A DNA stretch of 38,625 nucleotides from Anaerolineaceae bacterium (lineage in GTDB: Bacteria > Chloroflexota > Anaerolineae > Anaerolineales > Villigracilaceae): assembly GCA_009885945.1 (NCBI GenBank), contig VFJR01000078.1, positions 1 through 38,625 of the forward strand, in the 5' to 3' direction. This document shows positions 13,945-28,303 of the stretch, in pieces. The notes under the pieces are model-generated. The model was not told where the DNA came from. It saw only the letters and a program-made list of their open reading frames with translations, and ran no database searches. The position numbers were made by a program, and so were the translations under genes. The first letter of the stretch is position 1, and the number at the start of each line of letters is the position of its first letter.

Positions 13945-13965
13945 CCAAACATAATCAAACGGATT

Positions 13966-14212
13966 ACAGGGAAGAGACTCGCAAGAGCGCCGAAGGTGCA
14001 AATCTGGAAACAGGCGAACCCAGATGAATCTCTCAGGCAAAAGGACCCTGTTTCTGAAACATAAGCTCTGGAAAACTCCCGCAAGGGATACCGACGGTGT
14101 AAAGTTAGTTTGATAGTTTGTTAGTGCAATAGTTGGTTAGTTGAAAAACTATAAAACTAGAGCAACTAGGTAACTACTTCACTAAACTAATCTCTCAGGT
14201 TCAATTACAGAG
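13966..14212 (+). ncRNA. Tandem glycine riboswitch
   Basis: Two glycine aptamers lie in series. Aptamer 1 spans 13966-14051: P1 pairs ACAGGG with CCCTGT and the core has GCGCCGAAGGTGCAAA and AATCTCTCAGGCAAAAGGAC. Aptamer 2 spans ~14066-14212: P1 pairs CTCTG (14066-14070) with CAGAG (14208-14212), the core has ACCGACGGTGTAAAG, and it ends CTAATCTCTCAGGTTCAATTACAG. Its P3 arm is unusually long (~14104-14190, closed by TTAGTTT/AAACTAA) and filled with AT-rich repeat-like sequence. The conserved joining segments look intact. It should sense glycine and control the gcv genes downstream. Confidence 0.95.
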
Positions 14213-14246
14213 GCGCGCGATTTATTTCGTGCGCCTCTATCTTTTT
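14209..14246 (+). terminator. Riboswitch expression platform (terminator)
   Basis: AGAGGCGCGC (14209-14218) pairs with GTGCGCCTCT (14229-14238) over 10 bp with one G-U, followed by ATCTTTTT. Its first four bases (14209-14212) also form the 3' side of P1 of aptamer 2, so the two structures exclude each other. Glycine binding should stabilise P1, block the terminator and allow read-through. This is the known ON arrangement for glycine riboswitches controlling gcv genes. Confidence 0.85.
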
Positions 14247-14258
14247 AAATCAAAGTTA

Positions 14259-14772
14259 TTAACCGCCAAGATGCCGGGAGCGCCAAGATTCATTATGAAG
14301 ACGCCAAGTGTTTTCCCTGTAATAACAAAGGTTGAGCCAAGCAAGGATGTTGATGAAATTGCGCGGAAAATCATTGGCGCCGCAATTGAGGTTCATCGTG
14401 CTTTGGGTCCTGGTTATCTGGAAAGTGTTTATGAGGAGGCTCTTTGTATTGAGATTGAAAACCAAAAAATTCCTTTTGAAAGACAATTCACTATTGCAGT
14501 GGAATATAAGGGAAGAAACGTAGGCGAAGGACGACTGGATTTGTTGGTGGCGAAAATCTTGCCCGTGGAGTTGAAGGCAGTTGAAAACCTAGCGCCCATT
14601 CATCAAGCTCAATTAATCTCTTACCTTAAAATGACCCGCCTGCAATTAGGATTGCTAATTAATTTTAATGTACCAATGCTCAAACAAGGAATTAAACGAG
14701 TAATTTACACCCAACCATAACCCCTTGGCGGCATTAAATAAAACTTGGCGAACTTTGCGCCTTGGCGGTTAA
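14259..14772. mobile_element. Inverted-repeat unit carrying a GxxExxY gene
   Basis: A perfect 12-bp terminal inverted repeat, TTAACCGCCAAG (14259-14270) and CTTGGCGGTTAA (14761-14772), encloses a single gene. Each end carries several CGCCAAG-type 7-nt units (left at 14264, 14281, 14302; right inverted, ~14724-14767). Over the outer 27 bp the two ends match at 20 positions. The unit lies between the riboswitch terminator and the gcvH ribosome-binding site. I see no clear target duplication and no transposase, so mobility is inferred from structure. Confidence 0.5.
14295..14720 (+). CDS. GxxExxY family protein (PD-(D/E)XK nuclease-like)
   Basis: The family signature is GYLESVY, a literal G-x2-E-x2-Y, preceded by IIGAAIEVHRALGPG. 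Downstream, RLDLLV, then PVELKAV (E-x-K) and HQAQLISYLK fit the catalytic strand order of PD-(D/E)XK nucleases. The biochemical role of the family is not established; members often occur in many copies per genome. ATG 14295 gives 141 aa; GTG 14229 lies inside the riboswitch terminator and ATG 14271 inside the terminal repeat. No start has a clear Shine-Dalgarno. It is bracketed by CGCCAAG inverted repeats and lies between riboswitch and gcvH, so it would be transcribed when glycine is bound. Confidence 0.85.
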   Translation: MKTPSVFPVITKVEPSKDVDEIARKIIGAAIEVHRALGPGYLESVYEEALCIEIENQKIPFERQFTIAVEYKGRNVGEGRLDLLVAKILPVELKAVENLAPIHQAQLISYLKMTRLQLGLLINFNVPMLKQGIKRVIYTQP

Positions 14773-14800: not shown

Positions 14801-15178
14801 ATGAATACCCCCGCAAACCTCAAATACGCAAAATCTGACGAATGGTTCGACCCCGCAACTGGCAAGGTTGGCATCACAGACTATGCCCAGAATCAACTCT
14901 CTGACATTGTCTTTATCGAAATCTTTGTAGAAGCAGGTGAAACGATAGAAGCTGGGAAAGCGATTGCATCTGTTGAATCTGTCAAAGCATCTTCCGAGAT
15001 TTATGCGCCAGCATCAGGAAAGGTTGCGGCGATCAATAAAGATCTGCCCAATAAACCTGAATCACTCAACAGTGATCCATTTGGTTCAGCGTGGATGATC
15101 CAACTTGAAAGTGCAAGCGCTGGTGATGTGATGGACGCCGCCGCGTATGAGAAGCATTGCGAAGAAAGAGCGCATTAG
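14801..15178 (+). CDS. gcvH: Glycine cleavage system H protein
   Basis: GcvH is the lipoyl shuttle protein that carries the aminomethyl group between the P and T proteins. At 125 aa it has normal length, with the lipoylation site ESVKAS (K62) and the family context VFIEIFVEAGETIEAGKAIASVESVKA. ATG 14801 is preceded by AAGGAG with good spacing; the longer frame from 14762 would start inside the terminal repeat. It is the first gcv gene after the riboswitch, separated from it by the GxxExxY unit. A palindromic repeat starts 3 bases after its stop. gcvT and the lipoamide dehydrogenase gene are not in the window. Confidence 0.97.
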   Translation: MNTPANLKYAKSDEWFDPATGKVGITDYAQNQLSDIVFIEIFVEAGETIEAGKAIASVESVKASSEIYAPASGKVAAINKDLPNKPESLNSDPFGSAWMIQLESASAGDVMDAAAYEKHCEERAH

Positions 15179-18201: not shown

Positions 18202-19635
18202 ATGTCTCAAAAAGTTTTCATTTCTTATAGTTGGAGTTCCCCAACTCATCAGTCGTTAATTCAGCAATGGGCAGAGCGATTGATAGATGACGGAATTGAT
18301 GTGATTTTAGATATTTATGATTTAAAAGAAGGTCACGACAAGTACGCTTTTATGGAGAAAATGGTGACTGATGAATCTGTAACTCATGTTTTAGTGGTTT
18401 GCGACCAAAGATATACAGAAAAAGCTGATGCAAGAGAGGCGGGCGTAGGAACTGAATCTCAGATAATTTCAAGGGAGGTATACGAAAAAGTTCAACAATC
18501 AAAGTTTATCCCGATTGCATGCCAATTCGATGAAAGTGGAACCCCGTATTTACCTATCTTCTTAAAATCGAGAATTTGGATTGATTTCTCAACACCTGAG
18601 GCGGTTAATGGAAATTGGGAGCGTTTGATTCGGTTGATTTACGATAAACCATTACACGAAAAACCAAAACTAGGAAAACCACCTATATATATAACAAACG
18701 ACGTAGCAATTCCGACGAGCCGTACAAAGGTAAAACTTGATACCTTTAAACAGGCTATTCTTCAAGGAAAAAATGGGCTGCGGTTATATCGACAAGATTT
18801 TTTAGATTCCTGTATTAGTTATGCCGACGAACTTAGAATTCGTGAACGACCTAACGTTTCATCATTAGGAGAAAAAATTTTGGAAGACACTAAAAAGTTA
18901 ATGTTGGTAAGAAATAATATTGTTGACTGGGTTTTATTTGAAAGTAATACATCACCAAGTAGTGAATTCTCCGAAAGCCTTATACCCTTTCTTGAATCTC
19001 TTAGAGAATTAAAATCACGCCCTCCAGAATTTAATACATGGAGTAGCGTTTGGGCTGAAGCACATTCATTGTTTGTTTACGAAACATTTTTATACATAAT
19101 TGCCGCCTTAATTAAAACCCAATCTTTCCAAGTCTTACATGAAGTTTTCACAACTCATTATCTTATTCCCTCAAGTGAAAGGCACAGTGATAACGCTTTT
19201 GATACGTTTCAAACATTTTATGGATATTCTGATACATTGCAGTCTATATTGGCGCCTGAAGGACAAAAACTACATAGTCCTGCAGCAGAATTGATCCGCC
19301 GAAATGCAGATCGAGAAGACGTTTCATTTAAAACCATTTTAGAAGCTGATTTATTGATATTGATGATGGCTTGTTTAGATGCTAGTACAAGGTGGTATCC
19401 CCAAACTCTTTATTATGCATCTTATGAAAGCAGAGATTACCATTTGTTTTTAAGATCAACTCAGGTTAGTTATTTTATGAAACTCGCAATTATTACAGGT
19501 GTTGATGATGCAAATAAATTAAGAGATGCAGTTAAAAACGGTTTTGAGAGACTAGGTGTGCAAAAATGGTATAACTTTCATTATCAGAATTTTTGGGAAA
19601 TGATGAATATGGATAAACTTGGAACTCTCAAGTAA
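18202..19635 (+). CDS. SEFIR (TIR-like) domain protein, probable defence
   Basis: Residues ~1-150 form a SEFIR domain: KVFISYSWSSPTHQ, ERLIDDGIDVILDIYDLKEGHDKYAFMEKM in outline, VLVVCDQRYTEKAD and GVGTESQIISREVYE. SEFIR and TIR domains in bacteria often cleave NAD+ during abortive anti-phage defence, and a single-gene SEFIR system has been described; the same role here is inference. Residues ~170-477 are mostly helical, with no family I recognise; this part may sense infection. GGAG lies 9 bases before the ATG. The gene is visibly more AT-rich than the neighbouring metabolic genes (sample lines ~28-43% GC), suggesting horizontal acquisition. It stands alone between the gcv terminator and the aconitase X genes. 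Confidence 0.85.
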   Translation: MSQKVFISYSWSSPTHQSLIQQWAERLIDDGIDVILDIYDLKEGHDKYAFMEKMVTDESVTHVLVVCDQRYTEKADAREAGVGTESQIISREVYEKVQQSKFIPIACQFDESGTPYLPIFLKSRIWIDFSTPEAVNGNWERLIRLIYDKPLHEKPKLGKPPIYITNDVAIPTSRTKVKLDTFKQAILQGKNGLRLYRQDFLDSCISYADELRIRERPNVSSLGEKILEDTKKLMLVRNNIVDWVLFESNTSPSSEFSESLIPFLESLRELKSRPPEFNTWSSVWAEAHSLFVYETFLYIIAALIKTQSFQVLHEVFTTHYLIPSSERHSDNAFDTFQTFYGYSDTLQSILAPEGQKLHSPAAELIRRNADREDVSFKTILEADLLILMMACLDASTRWYPQTLYYASYESRDYHLFLRSTQVSYFMKLAIITGVDDANKLRDAVKNGFERLGVQKWYNFHYQNFWEMMNMDKLGTLK

Positions 19636-28047: not shown

Positions 28048-28074
28048 GTGTCCTTTTAGCTGACCTTGCGCATG

Positions 28075-28164
28075 AACCGCCAAGTAGCCATGACGCCAAG
28101 GCTATATAAAGTTCGCCAAGAAGAATTCTTTGCGCCTTTCGAAAAACTTGGCGCTCTTTGCGCC
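28075..28164. repeat. 90-bp repeat with inverted CGCCAAG units
   Basis: The left side has CGCCAAG words at 28078, 28094 and 28113. The right side has inverted CTTGGCG and CTTTGCG words around 28130-28164. The left end AACCGCCAAG is the same as the end of the GxxExxY unit at 14261-14270. There is no gene inside. It separates the minus-strand YbaK gene from the plus-strand phosphoesterase gene. Confidence 0.65.
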
Positions 28165-28303
28165 TATGTCCTCTTTAGAGGGTGGCGGTGAAAAGATTTT
28201 GATTCTGCGTAAGGTCAGCTTTTAATTTGGATGATGATATTTTATTTTAACGCTTATAATTATAGACGAAAGAAACAAATCAACCAGTCGAAGGAAATGC
28301 CTT

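Follow-up and report, generated by a model that had tools for sequence, protein, structure and literature searches.

In the REP/RAYT systems and the REPINs, a low-copy gene for an HUH Y1 transposase (RAYT) is accompanied by GTAG-tagged palindromes that are dispersed through intergenic regions. The locus studied here lies in a 38,625-nucleotide stretch of DNA from an Anaerolineaceae bacterium (hereafter the window) and resembles them in its arrangement: a low-copy gene, GxxExxY, is flanked by inverted copies of short sequences, gene-less copies are dispersed between genes, and the type of arm is matched to the type of protein. In contrast, the GxxExxY protein is a predicted PD-(D/E)XK nuclease of the RecB/Cas4-like type and not an HUH Y1 transposase, and its arms are tandem 7-nt words with no GTAG tag, whereas REP repeats are GTAG-tagged single palindromic hairpins.

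Other described systems are similar in part. The intervening sequences (IVS) of 23S rRNA (S23p or 23S_rRNA_IVP, PF05635) are also small single-gene inserts between inverted repeats; however, they encode an unrelated helical protein and show a 7-nt word pitch, while RNA pairing between the GxxExxY arms is not conserved and the window element lies outside rRNA genes and encodes a protein of another family. Cas4, lambda exonuclease and RecB share the predicted fold and the catalytic set D..ExK..QxxxY, but the GxxExxY segment has no Cas or helicase partner, and its protein of ~125–140 aa stands alone between arrays. Insertion sequences and MITEs likewise have terminal inverted repeats, one gene and gene-less derivatives. 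Unlike insertion sequences, the GxxExxY element lacks a DDE, HUH or recombinase domain; no clear duplication of the target site was seen, and the gene-bearing copies in one genome are divergent. A search of the open-access literature by gene name, Pfam and NCBIfam identifiers and word sequence returned no description of these elements, and no function for GxxExxY, a name that was met in passing.

We consider it probable that the segment at 14259–14772 belongs to a widespread class of minimal elements. These would form a selfish system of the REP/RAYT kind with a PD-(D/E)XK nuclease at its core, for which we infer binding, cleavage and dispersal. The class, which is apparently undescribed, consists of a single small GxxExxY gene with an array of ~7-nt words (CRCNRAG or CRCNRAT) on either side; the two arrays are inverted relative to each other, and their words keep a fixed pitch of 8–9 nt.

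The segment between the glycine riboswitch and gcvH

The preliminary description had reported an inverted-repeat unit with CGCCAAG words, and reading of the sequence confirmed it. The 514-bp segment has perfect 12-bp terminal inverted repeats, TTAACCGCCAAG at 14259–14270 and its exact reverse complement at 14761–14772, and CGCCAAG words, inverted as CTTGGCG on the right, occupy both ends together with one variant word per side (TGCCGGG on the left, CGCAAAG on the right; Table 1). GxxExxY is the sole gene inside the segment. Its start codon sits in the left arm, with in-frame alternatives at ATG 14271 and GTG 14229, and the innermost left-arm word falls within the ORF. This arm architecture is common to other GxxExxY elements; since it recurs at most GxxExxY genes elsewhere, the window arms are beyond what chance would produce.

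Table 1. Features of the window discussed in the text, with positions counted from its first letter
Feature	Position	Strand	Description
Glycine riboswitch aptamer	13959..14058	+	RF00504, 56.2 bits; upstream context
GC-rich hairpin, then T run	~14210..14246	+	Putative riboswitch terminator, by sequence; kept in element-free relatives
Left arm	14259..14308	+	TTAACC with CGCCAAG 14264, degenerate TGCCGGG 14272, CGCCAAG 14281, CGCCAAG 14302
GxxExxY gene	14295..14720	+	141 aa from ATG 14295; predicted PD-(D/E)XK nuclease with QxxxY motif
Right arm, inverted	14724..14772	-	CTTGGCG 14724, 14744; CTTTGCG 14753; CTTGGCG 14761; ends in GGTTAA
gcvH, glycine cleavage H protein	14801..15178	+	PF01597; downstream context
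Gene-less composite miniature	28059..28219	.	~160 bp; inverted CGCCAAG-word arrays inside outer inverted repeats GCTGACCTTGCGCA / TGCGTAAGGTCAGC

The location proposed for the unit, in the interval between the riboswitch and gcvH, also held, and the element lies directly downstream of the terminator-like hairpin. Putative glycine control of the GxxExxY gene would follow from this position. Two further features were observed nearby. At 14100–14190, 7-nt words (TTAGTTTGATAGTTTGTTAGT with its complement) form a hairpin between the apparent halves of the second glycine aptamer; relatives carry variable versions in the same place, and the hairpin is similar to the arrays of 7-nt words found around PF05635 genes. 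A SEFIR/TIR-domain gene (18202–19635) directly follows the two ORFs downstream of gcvH.

Comparison of this interval among relatives, a check put forward in the preliminary description, revealed 16 (L045–L060) in which the riboswitch, the terminator-like hairpin and gcvH are present and the element is absent. In a genome of another genus (G035), the same interval holds a GxxExxY element whose arms are of the CGCCAAG type, and the protein of this element is 68% identical to that of the window; slightly closer proteins (71%) were found in other phyla, in records under the names Deferrisomatales and Rivularia. This pattern would fit two separate insertions into a favoured site, or one old insertion followed by losses. 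In the relatives compared, no clear target-site duplication was seen at the gcvH site, where the flanks are too diverged to give the exact join.

The GxxExxY protein and its family

Profile searches agreed with the identity proposed for the lone inner gene. The window protein matched TIGR04256 (GxxExxY) with 147.1 bits against a cut-off of 35 and PF13366 (PDDEXK_3) with 145.2 bits against a cut-off of 22, the latter being its sole Pfam match; no DDE, HUH, serine or tyrosine recombinase domain was detected with the Pfam profiles. Its motif residues are E43, D82, E92-x-K94 and Q106-xxx-Y110. Among 150 GxxExxY proteins, D82, K94 and Q106 were conserved in all 150, E92 in 149 and Y110 in 147; E43 was near-invariant, although E43 and Y46 belonged to the peptide pattern by which the loci from other records were fetched.

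The AlphaFold model of the window protein (pLDDT 90.8) gave Cas4 SSO0001 as its best structural match (Z 9.9 over 103 residues), followed by many other restriction-fold nucleases (Z 6–8), and the top Foldseek match was lambda exonuclease (E 2.4e-3, prob 1.00). Both the catalytic residues (D, ExK, QxxxY) and the predicted fold are of the RecB/Cas4/lambda-exonuclease (QxxxY) type, and we predict that the protein acts as a minimal PD-(D/E)XK nuclease of this type. A sequence search of solved structures returned nothing convincing for the window protein, and it had no match in PHROGs. GxxExxY was found in 0 of 50,697 phage records and 8 of 72,556 plasmid records; therefore, phages and plasmids are not its main carriers.

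A nuclease of this kind might instead be domesticated and benefit the host, for example in anti-phage defence or repair, with arms that are regulatory or protective. The conserved active site, the vertical retention of orthologues across genera and the weak matches to Cas4 profiles in a defence-family library (E 0.03) are consistent with such a role. However, that library gave no confident match, the loci are scattered and variable with presence and absence at the same site, and two-sided inverted arrays fit regulation poorly. We regard a defence or repair role as improbable.

Inverted word arrays at GxxExxY genes

At each of 150 GxxExxY loci, the 250 bp upstream of the gene were compared with the reverse complement of the 250 bp downstream; 73 loci came from the window's family, and the 77 from other records, which carry 18 phylum labels, were picked by peptide pattern. 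Dinucleotide shuffles served as the null, and arms counted as significant at p<=0.01, that is, when at most 1/100 shuffles did as well. A null based on arm similarity across loci was uninformative, as different loci have words in common, and we therefore relied on shuffles and on gcvH controls. Significant inverted arms were found at 122 of the 150 loci, in many phyla (63/73 in the window's family and 59/77 in other records), and at 2 of the 27 gcvH controls. The terminal repeat architecture, for which the preliminary description had suggested a check at homologues, is thus widely shared. Six GxxExxY matches lie in the genome of the window; two of them are fragments at contig ends, and each of the four complete genes has its own distinct inverted arms. 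The two fragments (L013 and L014; G000 C37 and C17) stop near the contig ends at a common ACTTTAGTTTCCGCTAA, as if one gene had been split by a repeat at which the assembly broke.

The ends follow a consensus of TTT[AC]ACC (also TTNACC-RCNRAG) and then about three CRCNRAG words at a pitch of 8–9 nt, inverted at the opposite end. A strict search of 153 loci for three inward CRCNNA[GT] words with 1–3 nt spacers recovered 79 left arms and 93 right arms; 24 outward arrays were found, and shuffles gave none. In 59 elements with two such arms, spacer lengths agreed between the arms of the same element in 98% of comparisons, against 49% between elements, and the variable word letters agreed in 86% against 63%. 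In contrast, the spacer letters were identical in 46% against 38%, and pairable with G-U wobble in 58% against 54%. Because register and words are kept and spacer base pairing is not, the arms look less like an RNA stem than like putative binding sites for a protein, set in phase.

This result bears on an RNA-level explanation akin to the intervening sequences of 23S rRNA, in which the arms would pair in the transcript, RNase III would cut the hairpin and an insert in an operon would be tolerated, with the protein secondary. In its favour, the window element encloses one small gene between inverted arms and sits within a transcribed leader between the riboswitch and gcvH; moreover, PF05635 is the known IVS-encoded family, and PF05635 genes in these genomes likewise have inverted word arrays. 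However, selection on a stem would keep the spacer letters paired, and they are barely complementary despite the near-complete agreement in spacer length. An RNA stem was therefore rejected as the main function of the arms, and we consider the RNA-level explanation very unlikely.

Arm words were next compared with a FastTree phylogeny of the 150 GxxExxY proteins, in which character changes were counted against shuffled labels. The ..AG/..AT word ending required 3 changes (shuffles: mean 27.8, minimum 24), a covariation that rests on few transitions and in which the ..AT rows come from the window's family only. The CAC/CGC character required 31 changes (mean 48.8, minimum 40) and spacer length 33 (mean 57.9, minimum 48). 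Host-genome labels were unclustered (43 changes against 44.2 in shuffles), and both endings occurred together in 13 genomes. The exact word CGCCAAG did not cluster (8 changes against 7.9 in shuffles), so we confine the claim to covariation at the level of word class. This covariation with protein clade shows that arms and protein are kept together as a unit, and recognition of the arms by the GxxExxY protein would be the natural inference. The positions that best separate the AG and AT clades are 125, 128, 130 and 132, near a C-terminal NF[N/G] motif. One contig (G017 C14) carries three ..AT-clade genes (L032, L074 and L082) within ~6 kb.

Dispersed arrays and the proposed mode of spread

Gene-less arrays were sought with the pattern AACCRCNNAG-N1-2-CRCNNAG-N1-2-CRCNNAG, with the reversed pattern as a control. 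The 120 genomes of the window's family contained 2019 arrays, and the control matched once. The median per genome was 12 arrays where a GxxExxY gene was present and 1 where it was absent (Mann-Whitney p 7e-5), and array count correlated with gene count (Spearman 0.51). In a phylum sample of 151 genomes, arrays occurred in 26/34 genomes with the gene against 7/117 without it (Fisher p 4e-16). The association was also seen outside the window's own family (15/23 against 6/116; p 4e-10) and when the phylum data were collapsed to families (p 3e-4). Some genomes have more than 280 arrays and two or three GxxExxY genes; the highest count was 287 arrays with 3 gene matches (G145). Conversely, some genomes have the gene without matching arrays, and others have arrays without the gene (36 in G256 and 51 in G059).

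The arrays take several forms. Some are inward pairs of ~70–100 bp, among them four gene-less miniatures that stand in tandem upstream of one GxxExxY gene. In one family (f26), whose genomes include some with high array copy number such as G145 and G204, the arrays are mostly single and not inverted pairs. The preliminary description had noted an end sequence shared with the window element at 28075 and likened it to a non-autonomous copy without a gene. The shared sequence and the lack of a gene were borne out; however, the site is not a simple copy but part of a different family, a composite miniature with outer repeats (Table 1). About 12 copies of this composite occur among the loci read from the window's genome, where it is the commonest gene-less form seen. 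Besides the window copy, its loci (G000) are L001, L004, L293–L295, L300, L305 and L307–L310; the outer inverted repeats are near ACTGACCTTACGCA, with TTA/TTAA-like flanks.

The main rival to the REP/RAYT-like reading is that some other enzyme, from the host or from an IS, moves or binds the arrays, or that a nucleoid protein uses them as sites, with GxxExxY as a passenger between two arrays. The IS-like outer repeats of the composite miniature and the arrays in some gene-free genomes point in this direction, as do PF05635 four-helix genes in the same genomes that also lie between inverted short-word arrays. In contrast, the arm word class tracks the GxxExxY clade and not the host, the arrays are strongly tied to the presence of GxxExxY across the phylum, and the PF05635 arms are of another word class with a 7-nt pitch. 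We therefore judge the passenger explanation unlikely. The PF05635 genes (L194–L223) are themselves abundant in the window's family, where one genome may carry as many as 22. Of the 22 loci tested, 18 were bounded by inverted short-word arrays at a 7-nt pitch, a second class of word array. Array-bounded genes are thus a broader phenomenon, which could fit either a maker or a passenger.

Evidence on age and movement was also collected. Gene-bearing copies within one genome are divergent, and no near-identical gene-bearing copies were found at different sites, the best element-only match being ~78%. A number of insertions date far back and have been inherited vertically, with orthologues across genera. 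At one site, G072 has the full element and G108 has arms without the gene. One GxxExxY gene (L012, G000 C55) is interrupted by an internal stop; three other genera have open orthologues of it (L247–L251) in the same position, which points to an old insertion. Around another gene, 1330 bp are 99.9% identical between genomes given as different genera (L098 and L099; G025 and G004), which may reflect either recent transfer or a binning error. Two loci considered as clean empty sites (L232 and L233) were discarded for their too-variable intergenic regions, and a gene beside L236, considered as a second insertion, proved to be an ordinary hydrolase-like gene. The earlier proposal of a small element whose nuclease-like protein may act on its ends is partly supported. 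Shared arms and element-free relatives favour it, and the two results named beforehand as refutations, homologues without conserved flanking repeats and the same gene at this site in all relatives, were not obtained. The covariation of word class with clade indirectly favours action on the ends, and mobility of the element is putative.

Returning to the REP/RAYT-like reading, we propose the following mechanism. The GxxExxY protein would bind the word arrays in register, on double- or single-stranded DNA, and draw both ends of the element together; it may then cut DNA at the ends or at targets. Host replication or repair would subsequently copy the array-bounded segment into T-rich intergenic sites, and gene-less miniatures would be copied more often than the gene-bearing segment. 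The gene-bearing copy would thus act as a low-copy maker, often vertically kept, while the miniatures multiply, as in REP/RAYT. Such an arrangement would be in keeping with genes that are divergent and low in copy number beside numerous dispersed arrays.

A stronger version, which we put forward tentatively and hold to be possible, is that minimal transposable elements of a categorically new class exist in prokaryotes, with GxxExxY proteins as their enzymes. A RecB/Cas4-type PD-(D/E)XK nuclease would alone recognize phased tandem word arrays as ends and spread pairs of arrays without a gene, and at least two protein clades that differ in word specificity (CRCNRAG and CRCNRAT) would coexist in the same genomes. 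Such an element would be a variant of REP/RAYT or MITE by its behaviour and new by its enzyme.

The tie between GxxExxY and the arrays gives a common gene, annotated without a function, a concrete and testable putative function. It also accounts for a large class of intergenic repeats, which number hundreds per genome in some members of the phylum. The covariation of protein and words is a natural candidate for a recognition code and is directly testable. If the proposal is true, PD-(D/E)XK nucleases would have to be counted among the enzymes that can sustain repeats of the REP kind.
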